Part shown: piece by piece, positions 10,386 to 30,795 of the stretch
Layout of the letters: the number at the start of each line of letters is the position of its first letter
Numbering within the stretch: position 1 is the first letter of the stretch
Assembly (NCBI GenBank): GCA_031285625.1
Contig: JAITVV010000067.1
Span: 39,497 to 103,496, forward strand
Source of the DNA: Prevotella sp.
GTDB taxonomy: Bacteria; Bacteroidota; Bacteroidia; Bacteroidales; Dysgonomonadaceae
Reading direction: 5' to 3'
Length of the DNA stretch: 64,000 nucleotides
Notes under the pieces: generated by a model
What the model was told of the DNA's origin: nothing
The model's database searches: none
The model's input: only the letters and a program-made list of their open reading frames with translations
Program-made: the position numbers and the translations under genes

Positions 10386-11345
10386 ATGGAAAATATTATT
10401 ATTTTAGCAGATCATTTCCTTAACTATCTAAATGTACCAACCATGGAAAATATTGAAATTGCTGATGGTTTCAAAGGTGAGAAAGCAATCGTTACGCCCT
10501 ATAACACAAGAGAATACCAAGAAACAAATGAGATAACGAGACAGTTATTTGTAACACACATTGGCTATTATCCAGATGCAAAATATCATTTTCGCCAAAG
10601 GGTATCTGGCGCAAATGAAAATATTCTCATTTATTGTGAAAAAGGGAAAGGTTGGGTAGAATATAAGGATGAAAAATATATACTATCAGAGAATCAGGCT
10701 TTTATCATCCCAGCAAATGAAGCTCATGTGTATGGCGCAGATATACGTAATCCATGGAGTATATACTGGCTTCATTTTAAAGGCCAGAATACCTATATGT
10801 TCAATTCCATTATTGGCAAATTATTGTCCATACAAGAATCAGATAACAGCAGATACAGTGACCGGATGGTTTTATTTGAGGATATGTATCAAAATCTCGA
10901 AATGGGATATAATCCTGAAAATCTGGAATATATCAGCTTTTGCCTGATGCATTTTTTAGCATCGCTCAAATATCTGACACAATTCAGGGAAATTAAGAAT
11001 GTAAAAGTAGATGATGTGATACAGCAATGTATACACTACATGAAAGATAACCTGGAAAATAAAATAACACTAAAAGATATAGCAGATGCTGTAGGCTATT
11101 CAAGTTCTCATCTGACCACTTTATTTTCCCAAAGGACCTCTTTTTCGCCGATAGTGTATTATAATCAGTTGAAGATACAAAGGGCTTGCTCATTCTTGCA
11201 ATTCTCAGACCTAAAAATTAAAGAGATCGCGTTCCGGCTGGGATATTACGACCCGTTTCACTTTTCCAACGCATTTATTAAGGAGATGGGAATCACGCCG
11301 AAAGAGTATCGTAAAAGATATAGGGAAGAATTACTGGAAAAATAG
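10386..11345 (+). CDS. AraC family regulator with cupin sensor domain
   Basis: A 319-residue regulator. The N-terminal ~190 residues form an AraC-type cupin arm, with landmarks 'HIGYYPDAKYHFRQR', 'IYCEKGKGWVEY', 'FIIPANEAHVYGAD' and 'NPWSIYWLHFKG', which normally binds a sugar. The C-terminal ~100 residues are two helix-turn-helix motifs, ending 'YDPFHFSNAFIKEMGITPKEYRKRY'. It is divergent from the alpha-galactoside operon, so it is the likely local activator, sensing galactose or an alpha-galactoside. The start is uncertain: ATG 10386 gives the full frame, but a second 'MENI' start at 10443 would lose 19 poorly conserved residues. Confidence 0.92.
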   Translation: MENIIILADHFLNYLNVPTMENIEIADGFKGEKAIVTPYNTREYQETNEITRQLFVTHIGYYPDAKYHFRQRVSGANENILIYCEKGKGWVEYKDEKYILSENQAFIIPANEAHVYGADIRNPWSIYWLHFKGQNTYMFNSIIGKLLSIQESDNSRYSDRMVLFEDMYQNLEMGYNPENLEYISFCLMHFLASLKYLTQFREIKNVKVDDVIQQCIHYMKDNLENKITLKDIADAVGYSSSHLTTLFSQRTSFSPIVYYNQLKIQRACSFLQFSDLKIKEIAFRLGYYDPFHFSNAFIKEMGITPKEYRKRYREELLEK

Positions 11346-11368: not shown

Positions 11369-11398
11369 AAAGCCATATAAGTTTCGTTATATGGCTTT
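11369..11398. terminator. Bidirectional rho-independent terminator
   Basis: A 12-bp perfect stem (11369-11380 with 11387-11398) and 6-nt loop GTTTCG. It is flanked by an A-rich run on the left and cgTTTTTT on the right, so it can stop both the plus-strand araC gene and the minus-strand PKS cluster that ends at 11412. Confidence 0.88.
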
Positions 11399-11411: not shown

Positions 11412-12287
11412 TTAATATCTGCCGATACCCTCTTCTTTAGGGTATTTATAGAATCCTTCTCCCGAAAGATAGCCGAGTTTGCCCTTTTTCAGGAAATTCT
11501 CTTTTATGTATTGCGCAAATAATCTATCTTTCAGTTCTCCATTAACAGCGATATTATATATTGTATTGAGTCCCACAATATCATACATTTCGAATGGTCC
11601 GACAGGTGATCCGGTGGCAATACGCCATGTTTTATCTATAGTTTCCACATCACTGACTCCTTTCAGATAAAGTTCAGACGCCGCGCCCATAAAAGGCATC
11701 AGCAGTGAATTCAGTATATATCCACGTTGTTCTTTTTTTACTATAATGGGTACCATACCTATTGCCTCGGCAAATTCTACCACAGTATCGAAAGATTCAA
11801 CATCCGTCTTGGTGGATTTCATTATCTCGGCAATATTACAATGGAACAGTAGATTGGAGAAATGTAATGATAAGAATTTATGCGGGCGTCCTGTATACTC
11901 CATCAGATGACTTGGCAGCATGGTAGACGAATTTGTCGTGAAAATTGTTTTTTCAGGAGCAACCCTGCCCAGCTCGGTATATAGTTGCTGCTTTGTTGCC
12001 GGATCTTCGGGTACTGCTTCGATAGTTAGGTCAGCATTCCTTACAGCTTCCGAAAGATTGAAGGAATAAGATATATTATTGAAAGCATTTTCTATATCCT
12101 CTTCAGCTGCATTTGCTTCCCTCAGATATATTGTTTTCAGTAAATCCAGATGCTCGATAACTTTACTGTACATATCTGCACTTATATCGTATATAATTAC
12201 GTTGAAACCTTTATAGGCTATCTGAAAAGCGATTTGGGAACCCATATTACCACCGCCTAATACGGTTACATTGGAGATTTTTTCCAT
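11412..12287 (-). CDS. 3-hydroxyacyl-CoA dehydrogenase
   Basis: NAD-dependent enzyme interconverting 3-hydroxyacyl-CoA and 3-oxoacyl-CoA. The 291-residue length fits stand-alone 3-hydroxybutyryl-CoA dehydrogenases (PaaH/Hbd type). The Rossmann motif 'VLGGGNMGSQIAFQIA' is at residues ~8-23, an acidic Asp ends beta-2 ('IIYDIS'), the catalytic-His segment 'LSLHFSNLLFHCNIAEI' is near 140, and the C-terminal domain has 'GPFEMYDIVGLNT'. It is the last gene of the PKS cluster, 9 bp after the GT-C-like gene. Its position suggests it works on an acyl-CoA precursor or product of the synthase, though a general beta-oxidation role is possible. No thiolase or acyl-CoA dehydrogenase accompanies it. Confidence 0.9.
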   Translation of the reverse strand: MEKISNVTVLGGGNMGSQIAFQIAYKGFNVIIYDISADMYSKVIEHLDLLKTIYLREANAAEEDIENAFNNISYSFNLSEAVRNADLTIEAVPEDPATKQQLYTELGRVAPEKTIFTTNSSTMLPSHLMEYTGRPHKFLSLHFSNLLFHCNIAEIMKSTKTDVESFDTVVEFAEAIGMVPIIVKKEQRGYILNSLLMPFMGAASELYLKGVSDVETIDKTWRIATGSPVGPFEMYDIVGLNTIYNIAVNGELKDRLFAQYIKENFLKKGKLGYLSGEGFYKYPKEEGIGRY

Positions 12288-12296
12288 GGTGTATGT

Positions 12297-13904
12297 TTAT
12301 TTATTTAGTTTGTATAAGTGATGTATTTCTATACTTTTTTCGTCTATTGTATTTATAATGGTATCGGAAAGTATCAGTGTATAATTTTCTTTAAAAGCGG
12401 GAAGACTCAGAAAATAATCCTGATTACCTATTTTACGCCTTTTCTGTACTTTGGTACTTCCGTCAAAATTGAGTAAGGATTGAGGAATAAGAACAAACTT
12501 AACTTCCTTATTCTCTATATATTTTGTCTGTTCATCACGCATTTCCGGATATGACTCATAAGTAAGATTAGGAGAAACAAAATAGCGCACATTGGGTACA
12601 ATACGGCATGTGGTAAATAAACTGTTTCCGAGTCCAAAACCGATATTGAGTAATGTAGGGTTCTCTTCTTTCATAATTTCATCATGCAATTTCTGAGTGA
12701 GTAAACCTGGCTCCAGTTCAACTGCAGTACTAGCAATTCTATTATTCCCCAAATCACTTTGACTATAACCCAGATATACAATTGCAGTAGTTAATATTAT
12801 GAGATAGACAGGCGAAACCTGACCTTCCACTTTCACACATTTGGATATATATACGAATAGACTGAGAAGCCCTAAGCCGCTAAAAACAAGAAAAACAACA
12901 GGGTAATACATCTGAAAAACCGGGAACATGAATATAATAATATATAAGGATACCCCAGATAGCAACAATGCCCATTTACCCAAAGTATGTCCAATATGTT
13001 TTAGAGGGAACCAGAAAACTCCAATCAACGTCATAAAAAACAATGAGAATGGATCGAGAAACAGATATACGACACGGAGAAGTATCAGTTGAATAGTACT
13101 TGTGATGGATTGCAATTCGGCATATTTGCGATTTAGTTCTATATAGACGGAATATCCTTCCTGAAGAGCATCATTTACATACAAGTATATAAGGATAGGT
13201 ACTGCAATAACTAAAATTCCGCCAATATATGTAAGCGCATTTATTGCAAAATTCTTAAATTCCTTCTTTAGCAATAGATTCAAAAATATTGCAGCTAAAG
13301 GGAAAAACCAGAAAACGATTAAATTCAGTTTTATAAAAAGTACCATGGAACAAAAAAGACCATGTATAAACATTACAGATGGTTTATGGTAAGACGCATC
13401 CTTTTCTTTAAAATACCTGACAAAGTAAAAGAGGCTGATGCACTCGAAAACAAGGATAAATTCCTCTGCCGAACCTCCCGCTTTCATCATCTTAATAATA
13501 AAGACAGGAAATATAACAGCGACTATATATGCAAATACCCTATCGAGATATAGTTTAGACAGCTTGTATATAAAGTAAACCATGACAAACCAGGCAGTCC
13601 ATTGAATAAGGAACATTCCAAAGAATGAATTATTCGATATAAGATAACCAAAACCGTATATAAAAAAGATAAGTGGTCCTTTGTGATCAAATACCTCTGT
13701 ATAAAGGGCTTTCCCATTAAAAATGCCCTTTGCTACATTAAAATAAATATTCACATCGGCCCACTCATTTGAATAGTATAATGGGGACATATGCGAACAT
13801 ATAACTAATAGAAAAAAAAGATAAAAACCCAAGAGAGCAAGTATCTTCTTTTCGCTCAGCGTATTAAAAAATTCTTTATTCAACATATAAGTTTTTCTGA
13901 TCAA
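12297..13904 (-). CDS. Polytopic membrane protein, GT-C (family 39/ArnT-like) glycosyltransferase candidate
   Basis: A 535-residue protein with about ten hydrophobic segments followed by a ~130-residue soluble C-terminal part. Near the N-terminus it has 'WADVNIYFNVAKGIFNGK' and 'EVFDHKGPLIFFIYGFGY'. That is the DHKGP pattern of Bacteroidetes membrane glycosyltransferases of the ArnT/PMT_2 sort, in which an acidic first-loop residue is catalytic and the donor is a polyprenyl-phosphate sugar. It sits 9 bp after the second GT1 gene and 9 bp before the dehydrogenase, firmly inside the PKS operon. The inference is that it adds a sugar to the product on the periplasmic side. No assay or database match backs this, and a mere membrane anchor or flippase role is possible. 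Confidence 0.68.
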   Translation of the reverse strand: MIRKTYMLNKEFFNTLSEKKILALLGFYLFFLLVICSHMSPLYYSNEWADVNIYFNVAKGIFNGKALYTEVFDHKGPLIFFIYGFGYLISNNSFFGMFLIQWTAWFVMVYFIYKLSKLYLDRVFAYIVAVIFPVFIIKMMKAGGSAEEFILVFECISLFYFVRYFKEKDASYHKPSVMFIHGLFCSMVLFIKLNLIVFWFFPLAAIFLNLLLKKEFKNFAINALTYIGGILVIAVPILIYLYVNDALQEGYSVYIELNRKYAELQSITSTIQLILLRVVYLFLDPFSLFFMTLIGVFWFPLKHIGHTLGKWALLLSGVSLYIIIFMFPVFQMYYPVVFLVFSGLGLLSLFVYISKCVKVEGQVSPVYLIILTTAIVYLGYSQSDLGNNRIASTAVELEPGLLTQKLHDEIMKEENPTLLNIGFGLGNSLFTTCRIVPNVRYFVSPNLTYESYPEMRDEQTKYIENKEVKFVLIPQSLLNFDGSTKVQKRRKIGNQDYFLSLPAFKENYTLILSDTIINTIDEKSIEIHHLYKLNK

Positions 13905-13913
13905 ATTGTTTTC

Positions 13914-15098
13914 TTAAAGAGCAATCCCTTCCAGCAATTCGGCTGCTTTTCTATTACCTCCTGCTTCGATGAAAGATTGCTGTATTTCTCCGGCCGCCTT
14001 TTTATATGCGGGATTATATAATAATTCATCTACGGCATGCTCAATATCCTTCACGCGCATACGACTATATTTGATACGAATACCACATCCATAGTTTTGA
14101 ATTAATTGTGCTGTATGTGACTGGTCGAATGCCATTGGAATTATCAGCATGGGTATACCATTCATAAAGGTGTCACAAGTTGTATTTAATCCTCCATGTC
14201 CGATTACAACATCAATATGTTTTAATAGCTCGGATTGAGGTACATAACCTTGTACAATAAAGTTATCCGGCCATTCTTCCAAGATATTAGGGTCAGCGGC
14301 AGCAACGACTGTTACAGGTTTATCTTTCAAAGCCTCGATCATACGGCTGAAAAATTCTTTCCGACTGTGAACCAACACTGTACCTATTGATATATATATT
14401 TTAGGTCGATCACCCATTGATTTGAGCCTTTCCCAGTCAAAAGGCGTATTATCGGGCCTTCCTGTCAAAGCCCCTATGAATTTCATATATGGAGGAACAG
14501 AAGCATCATCGAAACCGCAAAACAATTGAGAAGTATAATACATATTCAATTGTTTAGACAATACAAATTCCTCATCCCCCTCAATACCAGCCAATCGTTG
14601 CAACTCTATAATAGATTTATGTACCCATTCTGTAACTTTAGGTGCACTTTGCGGATCATTTAGTGCATTAGGCGTAATTGGCGTTATGGTTGCAAAAGGA
14701 ATATTTTTTAACCGAGCCGCTAATCCTCCGACAAAAGTGATGCAGTCATTTACTATTACATCAGGTTTATACCTATCCACAATCTCATTAAACTCATCTA
14801 TCATCATTTTGGCAAAAGGAATATAAGTATCCTCCAAGCCTAACTTGAGAGCTTCCAGAGCCGGCATATTTGCACCTTTATTCTGTAATAAGATTATACG
14901 TTCTATCTCTTCCTTATTTTTACTTTCAGTCTCCTCCATATAAAAATACTTTGCCCCATCCGGAAATAATTCCATATTGAGCTGAGTCATACCTGCCCAG
15001 GCAACATCATGACCTCTTTCTAAAAGAGTGCGGCCTACGCTTAAGGTTGGATTTATATGCCCCCAGAATGGAGGAACTACAAATAAAAATTTTGCCAT
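13914..15098 (-). CDS. MGT-family GT1 glycosyltransferase (second copy)
   Basis: A 394-residue GT-B fold enzyme of the macrolide/antibiotic glycosyltransferase type, transferring a sugar from a nucleotide-sugar to a lipophilic acceptor. The N-terminal acceptor domain opens 'FVVPPFWGHINPTLSVG'. The C-terminal donor domain has 'IYISIGTV' and the donor motif 'GHGGLNTTCDTFMNGIPMLI' followed by 'DQSHTAQLI'. Soluble, no signal. It lies 29 bp after a paralogue of the same length and shares its domain plan, so the two probably act in series on one acceptor, presumably the product of the adjacent PKS. The sugar donor cannot be read from sequence. Confidence 0.92.
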   Translation of the reverse strand: MAKFLFVVPPFWGHINPTLSVGRTLLERGHDVAWAGMTQLNMELFPDGAKYFYMEETESKNKEEIERIILLQNKGANMPALEALKLGLEDTYIPFAKMMIDEFNEIVDRYKPDVIVNDCITFVGGLAARLKNIPFATITPITPNALNDPQSAPKVTEWVHKSIIELQRLAGIEGDEEFVLSKQLNMYYTSQLFCGFDDASVPPYMKFIGALTGRPDNTPFDWERLKSMGDRPKIYISIGTVLVHSRKEFFSRMIEALKDKPVTVVAAADPNILEEWPDNFIVQGYVPQSELLKHIDVVIGHGGLNTTCDTFMNGIPMLIIPMAFDQSHTAQLIQNYGCGIRIKYSRMRVKDIEHAVDELLYNPAYKKAAGEIQQSFIEAGGNRKAAELLEGIAL

Positions 15099-15127
15099 CG
15101 GATTATCTTTTAAGGTTATAAACCTAC

Positions 15128-16315
15128 TTATTTTACTAGTATGTTTTCCAATAATTCTACAGCTTTGGCAACACCTCCAGCCTCCTCAAAAGATTTCTGT
15201 ACGGTTTTTGCGTTTTCTGTATATTTACTGTCATTAAGGACTTCGTTTACAGCATCCTGTAAATGTTGAGCCTTAAATCTGTTAAAGTTTAATCTTATGC
15301 CTGAACCACTACTAACAACTGTGCCTGCAACATATGACTGGTCGTAAGCAATAGGTAAAACGACCAATGGTTTAGCAAATGATAATGTTTCACAGACTGT
15401 ATTATGTCCTCCATGACATACAACTGCATCCATATGAGGGATAAGTTTAAGTTGAGGAATACGTTTACAAACGATAAAATTATCTGGTATGTACTCAAAT
15501 AATTCAGGATCGGAAACAATTACTACACCTATCTTTTCATTCTCAAAGGCCTCTGTCACTTTTTTAAGGAATTGTTGCTTTACACTATGGTCAAAGGTTG
15601 TACCTATAGTAACAAGTATTCTGGAGCGATCATTCATTGATTGAAATGTTTTCCAATCAAAATCATCTGGAAAGTCTCCCCTGTTAATTACCGGCCCTAT
15701 AAATTTATAATGATCCGGTAATTCAGCCTCTCCAAATAGTTTTTTAGATGTATATACAATCGTAAGCAATGAAGAACAGTCTAAACGCTTATCATCATCA
15801 ACACCTACACTCTTTTGAAATTTTATAATCTGCTCTCCTTCCCATACATGAACCATAGGTAAAGTATCATTTACCTTGATAGCCGCAGGGGCTGTAACCG
15901 ATGTCACATAAGGGATTCCTTTCTGTATTGCAGCTACCGGTGCTGCAAAGATCTGATGATCGTTAATAATAATATCCGGTTTGTACGAATCTATAAGTTT
16001 CTTTATACCATCCAGCATTCCGGCATTCATCGGGACCAGTACCTCGTCATACAAAAATTTTAAACTATCGAGACCGTAAACAGTTTTTTTACCAAGTTCC
16101 AGCATTTCTGTCTTTATCCTCTCCTTATCTTCCTCGCTTATATCAGCTTCCAATAAGAGAAAAGTGCCTCCATCAGGTATTCTTTTCTCTAATTGGGGAT
16201 CAAAACTAATCCATGCAACTTCATGCCCTTTATTAAGCAATTCGGTTCCGAGGCCTAAGGTAGGATTAACATGCCCTGTAAGAGGTGGAACTATAAATAA
16301 AAATCTGCTTTTCAT
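15128..16315 (-). CDS. MGT-family GT1 glycosyltransferase (first copy)
   Basis: A 395-residue paralogue of the neighbouring GT1. The N-terminus is 'LFIVPPLTGHVNPTLGLG', and the donor-binding region is 'CHGGHNTVCETLSFAKPLVVLP' (split here by a few substitutions relative to its twin), then 'DQSYVAGTVV'. Its start overlaps the stop of the alpha/beta hydrolase by 4 bp, so it is translated from the same PKS mRNA. Macrolide-type GTs act on large hydrophobic aglycones, which fits a polyketide or long-chain lipid acceptor. The divergence between the two copies (different acceptor domains, similar donor motif) suggests different acceptor positions rather than simple redundancy. Confidence 0.92.
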   Translation of the reverse strand: MKSRFLFIVPPLTGHVNPTLGLGTELLNKGHEVAWISFDPQLEKRIPDGGTFLLLEADISEEDKERIKTEMLELGKKTVYGLDSLKFLYDEVLVPMNAGMLDGIKKLIDSYKPDIIINDHQIFAAPVAAIQKGIPYVTSVTAPAAIKVNDTLPMVHVWEGEQIIKFQKSVGVDDDKRLDCSSLLTIVYTSKKLFGEAELPDHYKFIGPVINRGDFPDDFDWKTFQSMNDRSRILVTIGTTFDHSVKQQFLKKVTEAFENEKIGVVIVSDPELFEYIPDNFIVCKRIPQLKLIPHMDAVVCHGGHNTVCETLSFAKPLVVLPIAYDQSYVAGTVVSSGSGIRLNFNRFKAQHLQDAVNEVLNDSKYTENAKTVQKSFEEAGGVAKAVELLENILVK

Positions 16316-17070
16316 CTCATAAATTCTAAAAGTTTGTCACTAACCCATTGTGGTTTCTGAACAGGTAGATTGTGATCACCTTGTCCTTTCAACAGATACG
16401 AATCCGGAATAATATTTTTCAGGAAATCTCCTGCAAACGAGCAATCTGACTCAGAGCCATATAATAACAGAGTAGGCACTTTGATAGGATTGTTGGACAT
16501 AATGTCAAACAAATCGTTGTCCATATCAAAATCCTCCTTTATGGAGGTATGATTGAACAAGTACTCATAAAGTTTCTTATTCTTTTCTATTTGTCTTTTA
16601 CTCGGCTGCAAAGATGTTGATTCGGCATAGTTATTCAGATATTGATCAAGAAATTCATTACCGTACTTTTGAAGTATCTCCGGAGCATCTCCTTCATCCG
16701 GCTTAGGAGACTCTATTACAGTAAGTTTCTCTATTCTTTTAGGATGAAGCATTGCAGTTTTCAGAGCAATGAGCCCACCATAACTATACCCTACTAAATG
16801 TACCTTCGTCAGATCCAGTTCATTCAGCAGAGCAACCAAGTCTTCTGACATAGCCTCAAGATTATAGCCATTATCAATTCGTTCACTCATGCCATGACTT
16901 TGCAGATCATACAAAACAACATGAAAATATTTGGCCAGTTCCGGAGCTATATTAAAGTAGAATACAGACATATTGGTAAACATACCATGAATCATCACAA
17001 TAGTCTGTGATGCTTCACGGTTCATTTCCAATACATGTATTTTCTTATTGTTTACCTGAATGATCGCCAT
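16312..17070 (-). CDS. Alpha/beta hydrolase, possible thioesterase of the PKS cluster
   Basis: A 252-residue alpha/beta hydrolase. Visible: the oxyanion 'IHGMFTN' (~28-34), nucleophile elbow 'GYSYGG' with Ser96, a late acidic residue in 'LLYGSESD', and catalytic His in 'GQGDHNLPV'. I start it at ATG 17070; the longer frame begins with TTG 17073. The start overlaps the ACP gene by 26 bp and its stop overlaps the first GT1 by 4 bp. Placement directly between carrier protein and glycosyltransferases suggests it releases the chain from the synthase or from the free ACP. An ester-forming acyltransferase role is also possible for this fold. Confidence 0.85.
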   Translation of the reverse strand: MAIIQVNNKKIHVLEMNREASQTIVMIHGMFTNMSVFYFNIAPELAKYFHVVLYDLQSHGMSERIDNGYNLEAMSEDLVALLNELDLTKVHLVGYSYGGLIALKTAMLHPKRIEKLTVIESPKPDEGDAPEILQKYGNEFLDQYLNNYAESTSLQPSKRQIEKNKKLYEYLFNHTSIKEDFDMDNDLFDIMSNNPIKVPTLLLYGSESDCSFAGDFLKNIIPDSYLLKGQGDHNLPVQKPQWVSDKLLEFMR

Positions 17071-17353
17071 CAACTATAAAGTTTACGATATCACCAATAT
17101 TTAATTTTACAATTTGGTCGAGATCCATGGCAGACAGCCATTTTGCGAAATCTATACCATCTCCATACTTTACTCTTACCTTTTCAGCAAAAGCGACCAG
17201 CTCAATACTGTCCATTTCCAGATCTTTTGTAAAGTTGCTGTCTTGTGTTATATCAAGCTCTTCAGCTATATCTGCACCAATTATATCTGAAATAAATTGT
17301 TTTAATACTTCAAATACCTGGTCTTTTTCGCCCTTTACCATTACTGTGTCCAT
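17045..17353 (-). CDS. Free acyl carrier protein
   Basis: 102 residues with the phosphopantetheine attachment motif 'DLEMDSIELVAF' (Ser49). The motif is unlike the 'LSIDSIKRM' motif of the three ACPs inside the big synthase, so this is not a detached copy of them. Helix III carries a longer insert than usual (FAKWLSAMDLDQIVKL). The start overlaps the end of the KS-AT-DH-PPTase gene by 13 bp. It may receive the finished chain for offloading, or supply a starter. The PPTase domain fused to the gene before it could activate it. Confidence 0.93.
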   Translation of the reverse strand: MDTVMVKGEKDQVFEVLKQFISDIIGADIAEELDITQDSNFTKDLEMDSIELVAFAEKVRVKYGDGIDFAKWLSAMDLDQIVKLNIGDIVNFIVDGDHSGKQ

Positions 17354-20300
17354 CCTATTATAAAGTTTTTATGTTTTAGTGTTTTCACTTCACAATCTTC
17401 TATGATCAAAGTCTCTCCTTCGATTCTCTTCACTTCATATCGCTTAGGGTTTCCTTGAAGTCCAAATCCTAACATTTTACCATATGATTCTTTAGCCACC
17501 CAAAAACGAGTACTCCATTCGGCAATATCTTTGTCCTTAAGCAAATCTAGTTCGTGAGGAGTAAATGATATATCCAGAAAGTCTTTAGTACGTTCCTCTA
17601 TTGTTTCAATATCAATACCTACTGGCTTGTCTGAAACTATACTTACGCTGGTAGATCCTTTATGTGCCAATGAAATTTCCATACCCTCTATTTCATCTAT
17701 ACCGTATACGTAAGGTTTACCATTGTCATCATATTTAATGAAATATTCGATAGGATATGTCACTTTATCTTTCTTATCCTGGACGTATGATCTTAAGCTA
17801 TCTTTCAAAGCTATTCTACTGGCAAGGTAGTCTTTACGCTTATTGAGCGGGATGGTAGCATATCTTTTCTTTTCAGGCTGATTCAGATATCTTTTTCTTA
17901 AGAATTCCAAGACAGCAGTCTTCTTATATTCACCCTCAAAGAAGAATACCCCGGGCACAATTTGTTCTGCCATCAGATTTCTTCCCGGATTCAGGGTAAT
18001 TGTCCATAATCTTTGATCAAATTCGAAACGCCTGTTCTGCCATCCTTTGGCAACACTCCATAGTTTTCCGTCCCGTTTCAAAATCATTTCACATGTTGTA
18101 AAGTCTTTATCTATAGTTTTGCTCAGACAGATACATTCAAACAGCCCTTCCTGATCATGCATATCCTGATAAAATGTAATATCCTGAACCTTTACAGGGA
18201 AAGTTACATTATTTATTTTCAAAATCAAATGTAAATAAAGCCCATATGTCTGTCCCATATTATCTAATAAAGAACCTTTACCTTCCTGTTTCCGTATATA
18301 GGCTCTTATACCTTTTTCGGTTACATGCGTAACTTTTTCTATACCTTGATATTCAACTCCGTGAAACATATAATTTTCATATATATCCTCGGGAGTAGGT
18401 AAATAGCTTATATTTTCACCCAAATCAATATAATTTTCGTAATATGGATCCGGAGTAGGCAGAGTATCTTTTAGAACAACCTCACCCGAGGCAAAATTCT
18501 TAATACCCAGAGAAATGAGTTCTTCAGATTTCCATACACCATTTATTTTCTGGATGAACGGGGTATGGACTTCCATCCATTGAAATACACTTATAGGGCC
18601 TATACTTACTATTTTTTTAGATAAATCCTGCTTATGTGCAGCTTCTGCCAATAGCTCGAAAGTCATAGTCATAGGAATTACCGGATTTAAATCCTCCGGA
18701 CAATCCCAGTACGATGGTTGTTTCACTAATGAGTGTCCCATCAGTGTAGGGTATGTCTCTAATGAAACATATAGATCTTCAACAAAAGATGTCCCTGTTT
18801 TAGCCTGAGTTTTTACAACTACAGGTTCTACTTTCTCAATTACAGGCTGTATTGTATTTATCACCTGAGGCTGAGGCTGAGGTTGTGGTGCAGTTACAGG
18901 TAATGATTTTACCACAGGTACATTTCCATTCGATTCTCCCCTTTCTTTAAATAATCTGGCCAGCTCCATTTGCATCTGGGCCATTTCTTTCATGTTTTCA
19001 TTCAAGGCAGCCATTACCGGATGCGATGTATCTACTGCCAATGAACCGAAATCAACATTAGAAGTAGCTTTCGCACGTTCTTTTACATGTTGGCTTAGAA
19101 TAGGGAATTCTGTCTGAACATCCATAAACATCTGCAACCTCATCCCTTTGCCGGATTTCTTTTTATTCGCCTTTTCTACATTAAGAAAAGACATGTCCAC
19201 ATCGCGGCCTTCGATATAAAGCAGAGCCATTACACGCCTTAATTGTTCCAATGTAGTTCTTTGACTACTAGTTTCAGATATAGCACTGTATGGCTTATTA
19301 GTAAATATATCGTCTACAAATCCGACAAGACTTCCCCCTCCTACTTGAATAAATACACGTGCGTTCTCTTCCTCATAAAGCTTTTCAACTAACTCCCGGA
19401 ATCTTACACCTTCAAGAAGATGCTTCACAGATAGGGCCTTAATATCCTGAGCTTCGGTTGGATAAGGCTCCAATGTATTGGTAGACCACATAGTTACTTC
19501 AGGGTCATTAAACTCAAGATGCTGAAATGAGTCTTCCAAAAGATCAAGCCTGTGTTTTATGAAAGGAGTATGGAATCCCGATTGATACGGTAAAACCTGA
19601 AAGAAAATCTGCTCCTGTTTAAGCCCTTCTGACAACTTCTTTACAGCATCTTCCGTACCACAAAGTAATACCTGATTTGGACAGTTATCATTAGATAAGT
19701 AAAGATCGGGAATTGTATCCAGATACTTTTTCACTCTTTCTCTACCTATACTTACAGCGATGAAGAAAACCCCATCAATCTTGTACTGGCTTGCATCCAG
19801 ACAATTGATAAGTTTTCTGATCGACTTAGCGGATACCATACCTGATGCTTCCACCCCGAACCATTCTCCGAGGCTGTGTCCGGCATTCATATCTGATTTT
19901 AAGTTCAGCGCCTTCAGCGACATATCCATCGCCCTATTTATCCGATATAGCCTTAGTACATTATCTACCATTTCACTCTCACTCGATCTGTATTCCTCTT
20001 CAGGCAGATTAAGTTTGAAATGATTGAGCAAGCTATCTATTTCAGGATTTACAGACGGATCATATCCTGGGTATAAAAAGGCTATTTTCCCTCCGTTTTT
20101 GATAAGTGGTTTGTTAGTATACCAAATATCTTGACGACCTTTCCATACCAAATCTTTCTCTATAAATTTTATTGCTTTTTCTATCCTGTCTGGTGTCGGA
20201 TTAAAGACCACCAAGCGGTAATCTCCATCCTGATTTGCAGATGATGTTTCTCCATTACGAAGGCTTTTTATCAATGCCTCTTTAGTCGGTGCTGTTAAAG

Positions 20301-21735
20301 CAACCACTTTATCCGGGAATGGGCTTCTATCTGCAGTCAGAGATTGCTTCTCTCCATATGCCTCTAATATGACATGTGCATTAATACCGCCAAAACCAAA
20401 TGCATTCACACCCGCAATAAGAGGATATTTGTTTTCATCCCATTCCTGCAACTGTTGTACAGGTTTGAAACGTGTTTTTTCCATTCCTTTAAGGGGGCGT
20501 TCACAATGTAGTGTCGGCGGAATTTGTCTCGTATACAAAGCTAGAACTGCTTTTATCAAACCAAGAATACCAGCCGCAGGCATTGCATGACCAACATTGG
20601 ATTTTACAGAACCTAACAGAACTTCTTTATCACACTCTTCTTTTGGAAAAACCTCTGACAAAGTTTGTAATTCTGTTCTGTCTCCTACAACTGTTGCGGT
20701 TCCATGCGCTTCCAAGTAACCAATCTTAGCTTTGTCCATCCCAGAATCTGTCCAGGCTGTCTCTATAGCAAGTTTCTGACCTTTAACAGCAGGAGCCATA
20801 ACAGCTACACCCGATCCGTCACTACTTACCCCTATACCTCTGATTACGGCGTAGATACGGTCATTATCTGCAACAGCTTTATCCAGAGTTTTCAGGACAA
20901 CAAAACCTCCCCCTTCACCAATCAATAGTCCATCTGCATCTTCACTGAATGGTGTTATACTTTGCTTATGAGATAAAGCACCCAGTTGTGCAAAAATACT
21001 CCAGAACGGAGTATTGTGACCGGCATGTACACCTCCTGCAACAGCAATATCACATCTCCCGCTTTCCAATTCTTTTACACAATGTTCCAAAGCGATCAAA
21101 GAACTGGCACAGGCAGCATCAATTACATATGAAGGTCCCTGCATGTCCAGTTTGTTGGATATAAGGGAAGCAATCAAATTTGGTATAAGTCCAGGCATAG
21201 AGTCGGCCTGATAGCGGCCCCGGGATGCCTGATATTGTTCTTTAATTTTATCTATTTCTTCGTCAGATAGATCCGGTAATGCTTTCTTTACCACTTCGGC
21301 CATCTGATGACTTACATGAACTATATCCATAGCCCGCCATACAGCAGATCCCACATACGCCCCTTTACCAATTACCAAGGCACACTTTTTCAATGATATC
21401 TTCTTGTCAAATACCGATGCATCTTCCAATGCCTGATAAACACTTTTCAGTGTTAACATGTGGGACGTATCCATTCCTTGTACCGCAAGCGGCAGAATAG
21501 AAAACTCCATAGGATCAAATAATATATCCGGAATAAAACCTCCCCGCTTACAATAGAAACGATCTACAGCCGGCTTTCTTGTTTCATCAAAATATCGGGG
21601 ATCTAACCTATCGGCCGGGGCATCCTTAATACAGTCTACCCCATTGATAAGATTATTCCAATATTCAATGTAATTACTTGCTTCAGGAGCGAAGCAAGAC
21701 ATTCCTACAATTGCTATATCTTTTTTATTTTCCAC
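17341..21735 (-). CDS. PUFA-synthase-like PKS subunit: KS-AT-DH-PPTase
   Basis: A 1464-residue iterative type I PKS subunit. Ketosynthase ~5-460 keeps Cys209 ('DAACASS'), His344 ('EAHGTAT') and His383 ('NVGHAMP'), so it is a condensing KS, not a chain-length-factor. An acyltransferase-like domain ~550-845 has Ser621 ('AGHSLGEW') and 'GFHTPF', but the usual GQGSQ motif is replaced by 'YPGYDPS' and the conserved AT arginine region is unrecognisable. A Pro/Gln-rich linker spans ~940-980. A double-hotdog dehydratase spans ~990-1260, with His1001 ('MGHSLV') and Asp1158 ('LLDNMGQ'). The C-terminus ~1270-1464 is a Sfp/AcpS-fold phosphopantetheinyl transferase, with 'VGIDIE' (1372-1377) and 'WVAKESYGK'. 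It starts 7 bp after the larger subunit. A fused PPTase recalls enediyne PKSs, and a two-subunit layout recalls Pfa synthases. The product is unknown. Confidence 0.93.
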   Translation of the reverse strand: MENKKDIAIVGMSCFAPEASNYIEYWNNLINGVDCIKDAPADRLDPRYFDETRKPAVDRFYCKRGGFIPDILFDPMEFSILPLAVQGMDTSHMLTLKSVYQALEDASVFDKKISLKKCALVIGKGAYVGSAVWRAMDIVHVSHQMAEVVKKALPDLSDEEIDKIKEQYQASRGRYQADSMPGLIPNLIASLISNKLDMQGPSYVIDAACASSLIALEHCVKELESGRCDIAVAGGVHAGHNTPFWSIFAQLGALSHKQSITPFSEDADGLLIGEGGGFVVLKTLDKAVADNDRIYAVIRGIGVSSDGSGVAVMAPAVKGQKLAIETAWTDSGMDKAKIGYLEAHGTATVVGDRTELQTLSEVFPKEECDKEVLLGSVKSNVGHAMPAAGILGLIKAVLALYTRQIPPTLHCERPLKGMEKTRFKPVQQLQEWDENKYPLIAGVNAFGFGGINAHVILEAYGEKQSLTADRSPFPDKVVALTAPTKEALIKSLRNGETSSANQDGDYRLVVFNPTPDRIEKAIKFIEKDLVWKGRQDIWYTNKPLIKNGGKIAFLYPGYDPSVNPEIDSLLNHFKLNLPEEEYRSSESEMVDNVLRLYRINRAMDMSLKALNLKSDMNAGHSLGEWFGVEASGMVSAKSIRKLINCLDASQYKIDGVFFIAVSIGRERVKKYLDTIPDLYLSNDNCPNQVLLCGTEDAVKKLSEGLKQEQIFFQVLPYQSGFHTPFIKHRLDLLEDSFQHLEFNDPEVTMWSTNTLEPYPTEAQDIKALSVKHLLEGVRFRELVEKLYEEENARVFIQVGGGSLVGFVDDIFTNKPYSAISETSSQRTTLEQLRRVMALLYIEGRDVDMSFLNVEKANKKKSGKGMRLQMFMDVQTEFPILSQHVKERAKATSNVDFGSLAVDTSHPVMAALNENMKEMAQMQMELARLFKERGESNGNVPVVKSLPVTAPQPQPQPQVINTIQPVIEKVEPVVVKTQAKTGTSFVEDLYVSLETYPTLMGHSLVKQPSYWDCPEDLNPVIPMTMTFELLAEAAHKQDLSKKIVSIGPISVFQWMEVHTPFIQKINGVWKSEELISLGIKNFASGEVVLKDTLPTPDPYYENYIDLGENISYLPTPEDIYENYMFHGVEYQGIEKVTHVTEKGIRAYIRKQEGKGSLLDNMGQTYGLYLHLILKINNVTFPVKVQDITFYQDMHDQEGLFECICLSKTIDKDFTTCEMILKRDGKLWSVAKGWQNRRFEFDQRLWTITLNPGRNLMAEQIVPGVFFFEGEYKKTAVLEFLRKRYLNQPEKKRYATIPLNKRKDYLASRIALKDSLRSYVQDKKDKVTYPIEYFIKYDDNGKPYVYGIDEIEGMEISLAHKGSTSVSIVSDKPVGIDIETIEERTKDFLDISFTPHELDLLKDKDIAEWSTRFWVAKESYGKMLGFGLQGNPKRYEVKRIEGETLIIEDCEVKTLKHKNFIIGWTQ

Positions 21736-21742
21736 TTTCGAA

Positions 21743-27700: not shown

Positions 27701-29272
27701 GACTGTACTGTTTTCTTCTATTGCCAATTTCTGGAATCCGGAAAGAATAGCTCTCGAGTCTACAGCTTCTTTGGTATAGAGGTATGAAGAACCCATCAGC
27801 ACTCCCACTTTAGCACCTTTAGCATCCAGTGTGGCAGACATAATAGAAATGAATGCAGAAGAGAAAGCGTCGTGAATTCCACCAGCAAAGAACACACTGA
27901 AGGAAGATAAATTATCTTCTTTCAGTAATCTGTATATCTGCCTTTCCCACAAAACAAAACTGGAAAGAGGACCTATATGTCCTCCACTTTCACGTCCTTC
28001 AAATATAAAGTTTTTCGCATTTTCTTTTAGGAACATATCCAATAATGCCTGTGAAGGCACATGGATAAACGCCTTGATTCCTGCCTTTTCGAAAGGTTTG
28101 GCCAATGAAGGACGACCTCCCGCTATAAGTACTACCGATGGCTTGTACTCCAATATATATTTTGTTTGCTCTTCCCGTTGTTTTGTCGGGATAAAACCAA
28201 GTAACCCCACGCCCCATGTTTTACCTTCAAGTAATCTACTGGATTCTGCTACCAGATTGCGGGCAGCATCACCAGTTGTCATACTCATTGCGATAAATGG
28301 CAGAGCTCCGGCATCTGCAACATTACAAGCAAATTCGGGCACATCACTCACTCTGGCCATTGGCCCTTGAGCTATCGGATACTTAGTGCCCAGATCTTTA
28401 GCTAGCTTGCTGTCAGATTTGATTGTTTGTAATTTTTTAGCTTGTTGTATGTGTCCATATACAGCTTCATGAAAACCTGTAACTAATGCTGACAGGTTTT
28501 TATATTTTTCCACCAGGTCAATAGATATTGCGATATCCTGCCCCATTGGTATGAAATTATTTTTAATTTCGAGACCGCCTAACAAAGGAAGAATATCAGA
28601 GTATTTAGCATTAGCAGGCAATTTAGGAGAGTCATTTCTCTGTAAAACTCTGAAATTATCGATAACAGTAGTTTCACTTCCGCTTAATTTACTAAAAAGA
28701 TTCTTTAGCTCTTTAGCCAAACCACATTCAGGGAATAAGGATATCTGACTATCCATAATAATGCCTTTAGCTCCCAATGCTAGGCATGCAGCTGAAGTAT
28801 GAATTCCTGTCCCTCCCTGCACATATACATTGATGTCTTTGCCAGAACACTTACTGATTATGCTTTGGAAAAGAACAAAAGAAGACTGATCTGCAACCCT
28901 TCCGGCACCTTCATTCCCCTTTACTACAACATTATTCAACCCCTGCCCAATAGCGGACTCAGCTTCATCTAATGAATGTACCTGACAGAACTTCTTAATT
29001 TTTTTCCCGGATGGTACGTCCATCCCAAAAGGAAAAATTACAACATCAACATTTAAGGGTAATTTCAGTTTTGTTGAAGTTTCGTTCACATAACATACCC
29101 CAAAAGGTTTTGTCGTAGATTTTGCTAGAATGTCTAAAGCTTCCTGAGCCTCAGATTCATTCCGTCCAAGATGCAATACAGGATATGCACCCGATTCGAT
29201 TGTTTTTAAAGCTAGTGTCGCGTTTGGTATCTCGAATGGAGATAGAATAAGTAGCTCTTTGTAATGTTGCAT
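21743..29272 (-). CDS. PUFA-synthase-like PKS subunit: ER(PfaD-like)-KS-AT-ACPx3-KR
   Basis: A 2509-residue megasynthase. Residues 1-~560 contain two nitronate-monooxygenase-like TIM-barrel halves, the second with 'AQGPMARVSD' and 'GRESGGHIGP' (427-435). This is the FMN enoyl-reductase type found as PfaD in polyunsaturated fatty acid synthases, here fused at the N-terminus. KS ~646-1090 has Cys836, His971 and His1011. AT ~1185-1500 has 'GQGSQ' and Ser1280 in 'GHSYGEL', the PfaA-type sequence. Three near-identical ACPs carry attachment Ser1701, Ser1828 and Ser1954, each in 'LSIDSIKRM'. KR ~2030-2509 has 'GGAQGI' (2239-2244) and Tyr2421 in 'GQSDYASAN'. No dehydratase is in this chain; that activity is in the next gene. 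It is preceded by a 155-bp leader with three spaced direct repeats. Confidence 0.93.
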   Translation of the reverse strand: MQHYKELLILSPFEIPNATLALKTIESGAYPVLHLGRNESEAQEALDILAKSTTKPFGVCYVNETSTKLKLPLNVDVVIFPFGMDVPSGKKIKKFCQVHSLDEAESAIGQGLNNVVVKGNEGAGRVADQSSFVLFQSIISKCSGKDINVYVQGGTGIHTSAACLALGAKGIIMDSQISLFPECGLAKELKNLFSKLSGSETTVIDNFRVLQRNDSPKLPANAKYSDILPLLGGLEIKNNFIPMGQDIAISIDLVEKYKNLSALVTGFHEAVYGHIQQAKKLQTIKSDSKLAKDLGTKYPIAQGPMARVSDVPEFACNVADAGALPFIAMSMTTGDAARNLVAESSRLLEGKTWGVGLLGFIPTKQREEQTKYILEYKPSVVLIAGGRPSLAKPFEKAGIKAFIHVPSQALLDMFLKENAKNFIFEGRESGGHIGPLSSFVLWERQIYRLLKEDNLSSFSVFFAGGIHDAFSSAFISIMSATLDAKGAKVGVLMGSSYLYTKEAVDSRAILSGFQKLAIEENSTVILQAAPGQETQSLKSPFTEHFEKEKEKLQEQNLDSKEVWVRLEELNLGRSRIATKGIERIGTDLVKLGEEEQKEKGLYMIGQVAALNQKVLTLDELHKHVAIDNNELLTQLPDISLPVSQAEPLDVAIVGISGIFPDAHNIEEYWRNIVLGKDCISEVPDSRWNKDLYYDPNTTDTDKVVSKWGGFIPTIDFDPLEFGMTPQSLASIEPTQLLSLLVAKQALTDAGYGNLGEVDLENTSVIFGAEGSTELAASYGFRGYAKQALGELPDELKNSLPRLNEDSFAGVLSNVISGRIANRLNLGGRNYTVDAACASSLAALDLGCQELSSNRSDMVLLGGTDLHNGINDFLMFSCTHALSRKGYSASFDADSDGIALGEGIGVLVMKRLADAERDGNKIYAVIKGVGGSSDGKSLGLTAPNRNGQIKALQRAYQSAGILPSQVEMIEAHGTGTVVGDRTELRALTDMFLESGAIKGQSLLGSVKTQIGHAKCAAGIAGVIKTALSIYYRVQPPTLHLNKPNPYYDKDSSPFVFNTHSGYWDSERRIAGVSAFGFGGTNFHVVMENHKNSEVPSCSLPLWPSELFVFRGDSLSEAKQQLQKVKDVLGYNDKISIKDIAYSLAVYSKKEIQLSIVASDSSELLKKIDTALAGKEEYGIYPKNAKDGKVAFMFSGQGSQRVNMARDMFVAFPAMRRLLAKHKEYEKILFPYATFDEQTRKEQQKVITDTRNAQPLLGIVDFAFAEFLKSLGIVPDMVAGHSYGELPALCFAGAFDAEELVSLSRKRALSILDAVEEDKGKMIAVSLPEAEVNALLEGETEVWAVNFNSHKQIVLAGSTEGVNAFMQKLSKKNIAYKELNVACAFHSPLLHKSKDLYADVLKTVDFKKLSLPVWSNTTAEYYPAKGQEIKDRLSEHLIKPVLFTKQVENMYNDGARVFLEVGPGRVLTGLVQSILGDKVSAFETENKSFNGVSFILHSIAKYLSTGKFVDIDKLFDKRNATIIDIDKPEQYKKSPIIWHVNGHNAVPANGKMPSTGAYPITQPIMNLKEMYNNPNNNSVSGSSSSDQVVLEYLNSMRMMLQSQRDVMLGYLGHTPANNISAPIQTIPVQQVLPVAPAPQVQQSQPQPVVMPVAALQPVASATSAVSIEDIKALLLETVSEKTGYPIDMLGLELDLEADLSIDSIKRMEVIGALREKLNISGSMEDAEDTIEKLASVKTLNGLIEWIEDLAKSSMSQAQPQMQSAGSVMQVNMPVAVQPVAAPIASTPAPAAVSMEDIKTLLLETVSEKTGYPIEMLGLELDLEADLSIDSIKRMEVIGALREKLNISGSMEDAEDTIEKLASVKTLNGLIEWIEDLAKAGQEQASAPVQQQGTTPVMQSAQSMPVATQPVVATAPAAVSMEDIKALLLETVSEKTGYPTDMLGLDLDLEADLSIDSIKRMEIIGSLRDKLNISGSIEDAEDTIEKLASVKTLNGLIDWIEELANGSKSEETPAQLPSQSQPQQAAVTTSKTIADDLIRMSFELEEKILNSEKILIDGKHFALTDDGGEYAESVKAVMELNGATVDLIKGDEDLTQYDGLVILNSSASPRKYSIKEVFNMIKNVDLAKIKWVYTFSDILGNIKATEGISKMKEIQGFPGLIKSLAHEFPAINFRAVVSHSVFDKASLAQIVVDELLTRDATYIEIIYKDEKRYFTNPKPVELTPNGGSHLALDKDSVVVVFGGAQGITPELVSELSKEYPCNYILVGRSEAPTPEFDKYKSLDSKDKIRKYLISEENMRSPGEIEKKVQKIFKANQINENVAKIEKTGGKVTYVSLDIKNEQALRDFIKKTYETYGRIDGIFHAAGLLDDKLFIHKTFDSFEQVYSTKVTPLHVLLDELHPDLKLFVMFSSVASSYGNKGQSDYASANSVFDHIASALNEKMDARILTINWGPWKGTGMVSDTLEAEFKKRGVSLIPLKEGAEYFVNELKYGKENHVLVMGGAEDVKGFLNI
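23270..24286 (-). repeat. Three tandem ACP-coding repeats
   Basis: Three ~258-bp units at 24029-24286, 23648-23905 and 23270-23527, with start-to-start spacings of 381 and 378 bp. Each encodes an 86-residue ACP nearly identical to the others, joined by Pro/Gln/Ala/Val-rich linkers. Tandem identical ACPs are a hallmark of PUFA synthases, where copy number scales output. The DNA identity makes the array prone to copy-number change by recombination and to assembly collapse. Confidence 0.92.
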
Positions 29273-29427
29273 TTTTAATACTGTATAATATTATTGTTGT
29301 TTATGTTGTCTTATCCTCGGATAATAAAATCCAGGACCTATTTGTTGTCTTAGTGTTATCTATTTTTATCTATTACGTGTGTTCGTTGTCTTATGTCTAT
29401 TGATTTCCTTATATCAAAAATTGTCAA
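29273..29427 (-). promoter_or_regulatory. Leader region of the PKS operon with three GTTGTCTTA direct repeats
   Basis: A 155-bp gap between the MATE gene and the large PKS gene. GTTGTCTTA occurs at 29305-29313, 29344-29352 and 29385-29393, that is 39 and 41 bp apart. No TAnnTTTG box was found on the minus strand here. Either the operon is read through from the MATE gene or an atypical promoter or regulator is used. The repeats are candidate regulator sites. Confidence 0.45.
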
Positions 29428-30795
29428 TTATGTTAGTGTTACTGCATATGTATTTTTGTTAAATTTGCGTATTTGCCATATATATAATACAACGGCTAAT
29501 ACCGTTGACAAGAAATCAGATAAAGGTATTGAGGCCCAGACTCCATCCAGTTCGAAAAAATACGACAGGATAAATAGAGATGGAACTAAAATAAGAAATT
29601 GCCGTGTCAAGCTTAGAAATACTGATTTGACAGGCATTCCAATAGATTGAAAAAAGTTTGATATCACCATTTGAATCCCGCTTAAAGGGAGCATAATAGT
29701 CAAAATCTTTAATGCCCGCGCAGCCTCTCTTGCTAATGCCTCAGAAGGGTTAAAAGGGCGAACTATTATATTCGAGAAAAATATTCCGCAAACCAAACCC
29801 ACAATCCCGATGCCAATTCCTGCCTTGATGGCCTGATTTACTGTAGAAGCAACCCTGTCGAACCTCTTGGCTCCAAAATTGTATCCCACTATCGGTTGCA
29901 TACCTTGTGTCAATCCTACTATTATAAGTATTATAACCAATGTCAACCTGCTTGCAATAGTATAAGCTTCTATAGCAATACTATCTCCATATATTCTAAG
30001 ACGATTATTAATAAAAAAAACTACAACTGAGGCGGCAAGTTGCATAATAAATGGAGAAAATCCAATGCTTACAATAGCCCAAATAATCTTTTTATCAGGA
30101 CTTATTTTATTCTTATAAAATCTCAATGTACTATTTTGATCCAGAAAATGATACATTATTGGGATCAGGGTAACAAGTGTGGATATCGATGTAGCAACTG
30201 CAGCTCCTTTCATTCCCCATTTGAGAACAAAGATAAATACCGGTGCTAATAGAATATTCGTAATAACGCCCAGAAGCATTGTATACATTGCTTTTTTAGG
30301 ATATCCTGAGGCACGCATAATACTACTTAATGTGTAACTCAAGTTCAAGAAAAGGTTACATGGCAAATAATAGAGGAGAAACTCATGGGCAAAGTGATAA
30401 GTTTCATTGGTTGCTCCGATAGCTAACAATATGGATTCCAGAAAGAGATAAACAAAAAGGATTGACACCCCTGTTAATAAAACGACTAAAAAGAAAGCGT
30501 TTCCTAAAACCCTCTCGGCCTCATCCTTTAGCCCCATCCCCATATAGATGGAAATACGGCTGGCAGCACCTGTACCAACAAACAACCCCAAGGCTGTAAA
30601 AAGCGTCATAACAGGAAGAACAATTCCAAGCCCACCAATGGCATGATCGCCCAAACCGGGGCCATGCCCTATATATATACTATCTATTGTATTATAAATA
30701 GCAACAACCAGGGAGCCTACAATCGCCGGAATAGAATATTCCCAGAGGAGTTTTGTAGTTTGTTCAGTTTCTAATCTATTTAGTCTAGATTCCAT
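29428..30795 (-). CDS. MATE family multidrug/lipid exporter
   Basis: A 455-residue inner-membrane protein with about 12 membrane segments. It has the MATE features 'PAIVGSLVVAIYNTIDSIYIG' in TM1 (split by an intact charged-free helix), 'GLGIVLPVMTL' in TM2, a repeat of the same pattern in the second half ('SPFIMQLAASVVVFFINNRL'), and 'QGMQPIVGYNFGAKRF'. MATE proteins export organic cations or amphipaths by Na+ or H+ antiport; some flip lipids. It is the first gene on the minus strand before the PKS subunits, 155 bp upstream. It may export the product or be an independent resistance gene facing the MarR regulator. A -7 box TACATTTG lies at 30952-30959, giving a leader of about 150 nt. Confidence 0.9.
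   Translation of the reverse strand: MESRLNRLETEQTTKLLWEYSIPAIVGSLVVAIYNTIDSIYIGHGPGLGDHAIGGLGIVLPVMTLFTALGLFVGTGAASRISIYMGMGLKDEAERVLGNAFFLVVLLTGVSILFVYLFLESILLAIGATNETYHFAHEFLLYYLPCNLFLNLSYTLSSIMRASGYPKKAMYTMLLGVITNILLAPVFIFVLKWGMKGAAVATSISTLVTLIPIMYHFLDQNSTLRFYKNKISPDKKIIWAIVSIGFSPFIMQLAASVVVFFINNRLRIYGDSIAIEAYTIASRLTLVIILIIVGLTQGMQPIVGYNFGAKRFDRVASTVNQAIKAGIGIGIVGLVCGIFFSNIIVRPFNPSEALAREAARALKILTIMLPLSGIQMVISNFFQSIGMPVKSVFLSLTRQFLILVPSLFILSYFFELDGVWASIPLSDFLSTVLAVVLYIWQIRKFNKNTYAVTLT

Follow-up and report, generated by a model that had tools for sequence, protein, structure and literature searches.

Background

Secondary-lipid synthases were sorted into Types A to T in a 2011 survey by Shulse and Allen, which lists 14 of the 20 types without a known product (PMC3098273). 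Here we describe a relative of these enzymes encoded at positions 11412-30795 of a 64,000-nucleotide stretch of DNA, hereafter the window (positions 39,497 to 103,496 of contig JAITVV010000067.1, from assembly GCA_031285625.1, deposited as Prevotella sp.). The window genome (G000) belongs to the genus Dysgonomonas, as does D. mossii DSM 22836 (G017). Nine open reading frames (ORFs), all on the minus strand, were confirmed at the coordinates given in a preliminary description of the locus; the genes are intact, and eight of the nine are packed as one operon. Its core is formed by two polyketide synthase (PKS) proteins, PksA and PksB, whose closest characterised kin is the Type P phenolic-lipid synthase of Azotobacter and Beijerinckia, a system that works with type III PKSs. 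A glycosylated lipid is the best reading of the predicted product that comparison between carriers offers.

According to the survey, motif P1a of the phosphopantetheinyl transferase (PPTase) occurs in all types examined, P0 in Types A, B, C, D, F, I and L, the PUFA-type pair P0 and P1b (PUFA, polyunsaturated fatty acid) in Types A-D, and P1b' in Types M, N, O, P, R, S and T (PMC3098273). The same source gives the heterocyst glycolipid synthase (Type F) a protein with ketosynthase (KS), chain-length factor (CLF) and acyltransferase (AT) and no dehydratase/isomerase (DH/I), and reports Type N, product unknown, from Chitinophaga pinensis and Chryseobacterium gleum (PMC3098273). ArsD of Azotobacter is described as a PPTase only (PMC4824345), and in PfaB a KS' domain devoid of the Cys-His-His triad is combined with an AT that moves palmitoyl onto the acyl carrier protein (ACP) (PMC12895367). 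The antiSMASH class hglE-KS/T1PKS is reported, within the bee gut community, from Apibacter alone (PMC10673953) and, in Chryseobacterium herbae, as a cluster with no similarity to known ones (PMC10459008); we infer that both correspond to the set described here. A 2026 survey of PUFA-synthase-like hybrids treats PKS-NRPS hybrids (NRPS, nonribosomal peptide synthetase), and its main text contains neither "bacteroid" nor "chryseobacterium" (PMC13291983). Searches of open-licence PMC papers yielded no product for this set and nothing on termite PUFA-like PKS.

Architecture of the synthase and its known relatives

PksA consists, in order, of an extra barrel resembling an enoyl reductase (ER), an ER, a KS, an AT, three ACPs and a ketoreductase (KR). 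The extra barrel (residues 1-280) is a diverged ER-like domain (hhalign 96.6%), and AlphaFold gives a mean pLDDT of 90.9 for residues 1-645; the ER itself was matched as NMO-type in Pfam and NCBIfam. The three ACP serine motifs, at residues 1697, 1824 and 1950, are of PUFA type, and a tandem repeat search over these ACPs gave nothing useful. Domain calls are Pfam and NCBIfam profile matches on the window proteins, in which the catalytic motifs of the ER (second of the two barrels), KS, AT, KR, dehydratase (DH) and PPTase are kept. Profiles confirmed most of the domains that the preliminary description had named in the nine genes; its GT-C-like membrane protein retains only a sub-threshold PMT_2 match (Table 1).

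The earlier statement that the locus could not be matched to a named system is not borne out in that form: PksA and the DH-PPTase part of PksB match Type P, the P1b' motif groups the PPTase with Types M-T, and the synthase may be Type N. The PPTase sequence ISLAH fits P1b' (hShxH) and the P1a motif (NGKP) fits as well, whereas SRIALKD misfits P0; having P1b' without P0, the enzyme falls in the PPTase class of Types M-T. A tblastn search with PksA matched NC_010578 and NZ_AP022333, and the Type P sequences compared were the Beijerinckia indica pBIND02 locus and, by its description, Azotobacter vinelandii ArsABCD. The Beijerinckia ER-KS-AT-ACP-KR synthase is 37.5% identical over 72% of PksA, and its DH-PPTase protein 22.7% identical over 100% of the PksB C-terminal query, with the DH and PPTase motifs shared. 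The Beijerinckia DH-PPTase protein has no KS-AT, whereas window PksB is KS-AT-DH-PPTase; two genes annotated with a KAS III C-terminal domain occupy the type III PKS slot there, and the window set adds a free ACP, a hydrolase and a pair of family 1 glycosyltransferases (GT1a and GT1b). The Beijerinckia Type P PPTase protein (L092:5475-7364) also has DH motifs ahead of the PPTase, unlike ArsD as described. The window set includes no type III PKS, and PF00195 has no match in six carrier genomes searched (G000, G014, G017, G850, G827 and G957); it does match elsewhere in G633 (two places) and G666 (one; L145, L146 and L147 in all), and in the E. coli and B. subtilis controls too.

The set also differs from the other families named in the preliminary description. 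Enediyne PKSs are single chains with the order KS-AT-ACP-KR-DH-PPTase, and the window set differs in having two chains, a fused ER and two KS-AT pairs. The KS-CLF-DH2 subunit of Pfa Types A-E is absent, PksB being made of one KS stretch, an AT, a single DH-like region and a PPTase; the fused ER and PPTase and the glycosyltransferases are further differences from Pfa synthases, and the P0 and P1b motifs of Types A-D are missing from the window PPTase. From Type F the set is distinguished by the lack of a KS-CLF-AT protein, by the single KS stretch of PksB and by the evidence for a DH. A similar cluster was found on a plasmid of Streptomyces sp. NBC_01243, where the annotated order is PKS, KS..DH-PPTase, ACP, alpha/beta hydrolase and glycosyltransferase; the PKS matches by sequence and the glycosyltransferase is a GT1 by Pfam. 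There, a single GT1 is followed by a SAM methyltransferase, and no MATE, GT-C or 3-hydroxyacyl-CoA dehydrogenase (3HCDH) gene is annotated adjacent.

Gene sets and fusions around the core

The core shared by the sets is pksA plus pksB, mostly with the ACP and the hydrolase; neither of the latter two was matched on a Clostridiales contig (L078) and an Actinomycetes contig (L080). In another set (L075), which also has no ACP or hydrolase match, a PF00975 thioesterase (L075:11850-12572) follows pksB.

Two kinds of set can be distinguished by the genes that accompany the core. The glycosyltransferase kind, in Dysgonomonas and Apibacter, has GT1a, GT1b and GT-C, the last matched at 48-52% in all seven Apibacter-type sets. 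In the ten sets of genus g219 and of the Flavobacterium-like genome G666, GT1a and GT1b are fused into one protein of about 800 residues. The fusion is followed by two ORFs of 415-427 residues in nine of these sets, and the tenth contig ends after the first ORF; Pfam, applied to both ORFs of L105 and the first of L135, places them in the condensation/acyltransferase superfamily, PapA_C scoring under the cut-off. In Olivibacter, a separate operon at a distance of 14-20 kb from the core holds the hydrolase, GT1a, GT1b and two homologous acyltransferases. A Chitinophagales metagenome-assembled genome (MAG) has one set (L158) in which a hydrolase-GT1a fusion precedes GT1b and two acyltransferases of this sort, and one (L079) in which the hydrolase and GT1a are unfused.

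The efflux kind, in Tannerellaceae and Parabacteroides, has MacB-type permeases, HlyD and an outer-membrane efflux protein instead (by Pfam on L073 only); Azobacteroides-type sets were placed here by gene size and position. GT1 matches were absent from the efflux-kind sets. Among 12 PKS carriers searched with GT1a, a search by which Olivibacter was also assigned to the glycosyltransferase kind, the GT1 pair was present in nine, and the three without it (G957, G027 and G227) are all of the efflux kind. MATE genes also adjoin the PKS sets in Apibacter and Tannerellaceae. MacAB efflux genes adjoin the D. mossii and G014 sets and were rejected as members of the Dysgonomonas set because they are found in 10 of 10 Dysgonomonas genomes tested.

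Conservation and decay of PksB

The AT of PksA keeps the malonyl-binding Arg in 33 of 33 aligned rows, at the position assigned by reference to FabD. In PksB, this Arg is found in none of 43 AT rows (another residue in 38, a gap in five), the Ser and His being mostly kept and the Ser lost in L078 and L081; L064/L133 and L072/L134 are counted twice in this alignment, L081, L083 and a Rhodobacteraceae row are poorly aligned or partial, and the alignment excludes Type P proteins and any row that lacks an AT.

The KS of PksB shows a series of states. In the window protein Cys, His and His are all intact, whereas none of the seven Apibacter-type sets with glycosyltransferases (L064, L065, L066 and L129-L132) has the complete triad: in five, Glu, Thr or Tyr stands in place of the Cys and the first His is lost as well, a sixth retains the Cys with the first His gone, and in A. 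adventoris the domain is missing altogether (L065:8891-11800, 969 residues). GT1a and GT1b are retained in all seven. In the Chitinophagales set L079, Phe and Asn stand at triad positions. The termite-type MAG Im510_bin53 (G902, g397) has two different copies of the synthase, one with glycosyltransferases and a damaged KS (L064) and one free of glycosyltransferases with an intact KS (L072). In G027, a duplicate PksB-like protein with a decayed PPTase (L076:5568-8588; VGIDIE and WVAKEAYGK lost) stands beside an intact copy.

For the DH of PksB, the preliminary assignment keeps its motifs (His, Pro and Asp, all present in the window protein) and a family profile, and goes without a Pfam match in the window protein itself. 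PS-DH matches seven of 16 members of the PksB family at E up to 1 (best 7.9e-7), and the family profile weakly matches the PKS dehydratase structures CurF (E 0.005) and CurK (E 0.01).

Distribution and phylogeny

Among 25 Dysgonomonas genomes surveyed, several of them incomplete, the PKS pair is present in three, all with the identical nine-gene order. GT1a and GT1b (each at E up to 1e-10) and 3HCDH (E up to 1e-30) are found in exactly these three genomes. The MATE and GT-C genes are less exclusive: the cluster MATE is an extra copy alongside one present in 22 of 25 genomes, and outside the cluster G000, G014 and D. mossii each have a GT-C paralogue at 47-48%. The nine-gene order, whose comparison across Bacteroidales the preliminary description had suggested, is not conserved there; among the sets examined all nine genes occur together only in the three Dysgonomonas genomes, and 3HCDH adjoins the set only in this genus. 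A MAG named Dysgonomonas sp. UBA10850 (L067), not known to be one of the 25 genomes, has the core with split frames on a contig that breaks off within the hydrolase gene, and in the tree its PksA sits on a different branch from the window protein.

True PksB matches were found in three of 393 genomes of the order and four of 395 of the phylum. In the order-wide search with the DH-PPTase query, 50 of 53 matched genomes were dropped, the match being only to the C-terminal PPTase part in short frames. In the family of G633, PksB is matched in 16 of 148 genomes and two of 33 genera: g397 (seven genomes), which is the genus Apibacter and includes A. adventoris (G850) and A. muscae (G827), and g219 (nine genomes of 3.7-5.2 Mb, G633 among them), presumably Chryseobacterium. 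The g219 carriers of the window-type synthase have PapA-like genes where Dysgonomonas has GT-C and 3HCDH. If g219 is indeed Chryseobacterium, the Dysgonomonas/g219 set is possibly the same synthase as Type N.

A scan of named genomes gave 29 loci; five of these (L086-L090), with identities of 24-29%, come from MAGs of Bradymonadales, Myxococcota or proteobacteria. The PksA/PksB pair, often with the free ACP and the hydrolase, occurs in Bacteroidota, Bacillota and Actinomycetota, and in remoter form in Myxococcota-type MAGs. That the copies in Bacillota and Actinomycetota come from a recent error in binning seems unlikely: the G+C content of four such loci is 52-64%, vs 29-45% in the Bacteroidota loci measured (with the exception of a Chitinophagales MAG at 53%), which argues against stray Bacteroidota contigs, MAG taxonomy being taken as labelled.

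In a midpoint-rooted tree of the PksA KS-AT region (33 rows), 22 rows form a group with support of 100/100. It includes Dysgonomonas, Apibacter, Parabacteroides PH5-46 and MAGs with termite-type sample codes (Bacteroidota, Clostridiales, Actinomycetes and Propionibacteriaceae), together with L067, L068 and L091; the g219, G666, Olivibacter and Chitinophagales rows fall outside. Since D. mossii, which we take to be a human isolate, belongs to the group, it is not purely insect-borne. Other termite-style isolate codes, the host of Parabacteroides PH5-46 and, for A. muscae, a fly host were likewise assigned on our own assumption. The codes Mp193, Nc150 and Emb289 (PMC7024585) and Roe453 and Gx485 (PMC11707648) are given as termite samples in the respective sources. 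In a KS tree (50 rows, 49 different), the KSs of PksA and of PksB form two separate clades of broadly matching branching order; KSs of Type P and PfaA-like KSs from plasmids lie with the former, and the latter are separate from those of the PfaC-like proteins in Persicobacter and Azospirillum. Both trees contain several long-branched rows.

Predicted product and alternative readings

From the observed gene content, conservation of catalytic motifs, co-occurrence and fusions we predict reactions, their order, a chain, sugars and a role. With middling confidence, we propose that the set makes, glycosylates and exports a long-chain lipid, with PksB as terminator. The PPTase at the C-terminal end of PksB would activate the carrier domains; the AT of PksA would load malonyl units, and its KS, KR and FMN-type ER would elongate iteratively, the DH of PksB acting in trans. 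The KS-AT of PksB, without any extender role, would act as a PfaB-like terminal acyltransferase moving the finished chain to the free ACP, and the alpha/beta hydrolase, a presumed thioesterase-like release enzyme, would then release it. Two sugars would be attached in the cytosol by GT1a and GT1b, and the MATE pump would export the glycosylated lipid; on the outer face GT-C may attach a third, and 3HCDH may set the oxidation level of the beta-hydroxyl in Dysgonomonas. The fused glycosyltransferases, the hydrolase-GT1a fusion, the PapA-like acyltransferases and the co-occurrence of GT1s with the PKS pair all point to a glycosylated lipid. The preliminary description had arrived at the same best guess, and its picture of a PUFA-synthase-like iterative synthase with its own PPTase, glycosylation and export is borne out. 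The second KS-AT is probably, though not certainly, no second elongation module: the AT of PksB lacks the malonyl Arg, and the triad loss in the PksB KS of the Apibacter-type sets resembles the KS' of PfaB. On this analogy with the published description of PfaB, PksB may be a PfaB-like terminator fused to a DH and a PPTase.

Several observations weigh against this proposal. MGT-type GT1s also inactivate macrolides. GT1s are absent from the Tannerellaceae sets, and glycosylation therefore lies outside the core. The putative DH of window PksB is called from motifs and the family profile. All 3 Dysgonomonas sets, all 10 sets of g219 and G666, and L072 retain an intact PksB KS, which may therefore still elongate there; the KS' of PfaB is degenerate, whereas the KS of window PksB is intact and loss is seen in the Apibacter-type sets with glycosyltransferases. 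PfaB of M. marina is described as handing malonyl to ACP too, though not as well as PfaA-MAT does, and the same source cites homologues with hydrolase activity only (PMC12895367).

An intact KS would suit a two-stage, Type P-like pathway, in which PksA makes a saturated acyl chain, the KS-AT of PksB lengthens it by a few units to give a polar or cyclic head, and the glycosyltransferases glycosylate this head. We consider such a pathway unlikely, though it survives best among the alternatives, and the same holds for its premise that the KS-AT of PksB replaces the type III PKS. PksA and the DH-PPTase are kin to Type P of Beijerinckia and its Methylosinus counterpart, Cys-His-His is kept in the Dysgonomonas and g219/G666 sets, and the six carriers named above have no PF00195 match. 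An objection comes from the seven Apibacter-type sets, all of which retain the same glycosyltransferases with a PksB KS that is dead or gone. The AT of PksB also lacks the Arg of a malonyl loader, although the AT of PksA could load in trans.

Less likely still is an antibiotic or surfactant-like polyketide, glycosylation and export by MATE or MacAB-type pumps serving self-protection and secretion in gut competition. In its favour, the GT1s match the macrolide family MGT (below cut-off) and, weakly, OleI, and in the Parabacteroides relative the PKS is followed by efflux genes of the MacB, HlyD and outer-membrane kinds; chitinimines, products of another PUFA-synthase-like pathway, are reported to have surfactant properties (PMC13291983). 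However, no self-resistance gene was recognised among the nine genes, the PapA-like acyltransferases and GT-C better fit an envelope or secreted glycolipid, and MacAB genes, which adjoin the D. mossii set, recur in all ten Dysgonomonas genomes tested.

An ordinary PUFA or long-chain fatty acid synthase feeding phospholipids, with the glycosyltransferases as unrelated neighbours, is very improbable: at 1077 bits, PksA passes the PfaA cut-off of NCBIfam (1010 bits), and its ACP motifs are of PUFA type, but glycosyltransferase co-occurrence and fusions, the missing KS-CLF-DH2 subunit and a PPTase without the PUFA motifs P0 and P1b speak against it.

Building on the proposed glycosylated lipid, we tentatively suggest, as a possibility on the doubtful side, a new group of secreted, multi-glycosylated lipids spread among unrelated insect-gut bacteria by horizontal transfer across three phyla, made by a megasynthase whose PksB combines terminator, trans-acting DH and PPTase and whose KS is decaying to a PfaB-like KS'. 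The natural series of intact KS, dead KS and no KS bears on the origin of the terminating KS'-AT in PUFA-type synthases, and the candidate lipid may be common to symbionts of several insect guts. As the carriers include the isolates D. mossii, Apibacter and Olivibacter domesticus, the product can be sought, in a field where the 2011 survey left 14 of 20 types without one (PMC3098273).

Gene coordinates and neighbouring genes

Table 1. Positions of the cluster genes, PksA domains and adjoining features in the window
Feature	Position	Strand	Evidence
MATE-family exporter, first gene	29428..30795	-	Pfam MatE 3.5e-47
PksA, 2509 residues	21743..29272	-	Pfam/NCBIfam, aligned active sites, hhalign, AlphaFold
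PksA domains (residues)	barrel 1-280; FabK/PfaD-type ER 285-640; KS ~649-1087; AT ~1187-1477; KR 2234-2452		
PksB, 1464 residues, KS-AT-DH-PPTase	17341..21735	-	Pfam/NCBIfam, motifs, family profile
Free acyl carrier protein	17045..17353	-	Pfam PP-binding 1.3e-4
Alpha/beta hydrolase	16312..17073	-	Pfam; GYSYG nucleophile motif
GT1a, MGT-family glycosyltransferase	15128..16315	-	TIGR01426 1.4e-56, under cut-off
GT1b, MGT-family glycosyltransferase	13914..15098	-	TIGR01426 4.4e-58, under cut-off
GT-C-like membrane glycosyltransferase	12297..13904	-	PMT_2 sub-threshold, 25.5 bits vs cut-off 26.1
3-hydroxyacyl-CoA dehydrogenase (3HCDH, hcdh; PRK08293), last gene	11412..12287	-	NCBIfam 379 bits vs cut-off 312
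Terminator-like hairpin between araC and last cluster gene	11369..11398	+	1 found vs 0.7 expected in shuffles: weak alone
AraC-family regulator convergent with cluster, candidate regulator	10386..11345	+	Pfam; hairpin follows

The gaps between genes from pksA to hcdh are 7, -13, -29, -4, 29, 9 and 9 nucleotides, and the MATE gene lies 155 nucleotides upstream of pksA. The G+C content of the cluster (38.3%) is close to that of the remaining window (37.0%), so composition shows no sign of recent import. A scan of the locus with the Bacteroidota promoter pattern gave loose matches only. A MarR-family regulator (31109-31534), divergent from the MATE gene, is a possible export regulator. Further away, a protein with DUF5107 and TPR domains (5542-8886) lies within a run of GH97/GH36 glycoside hydrolase genes, with a sugar transporter adjoining.

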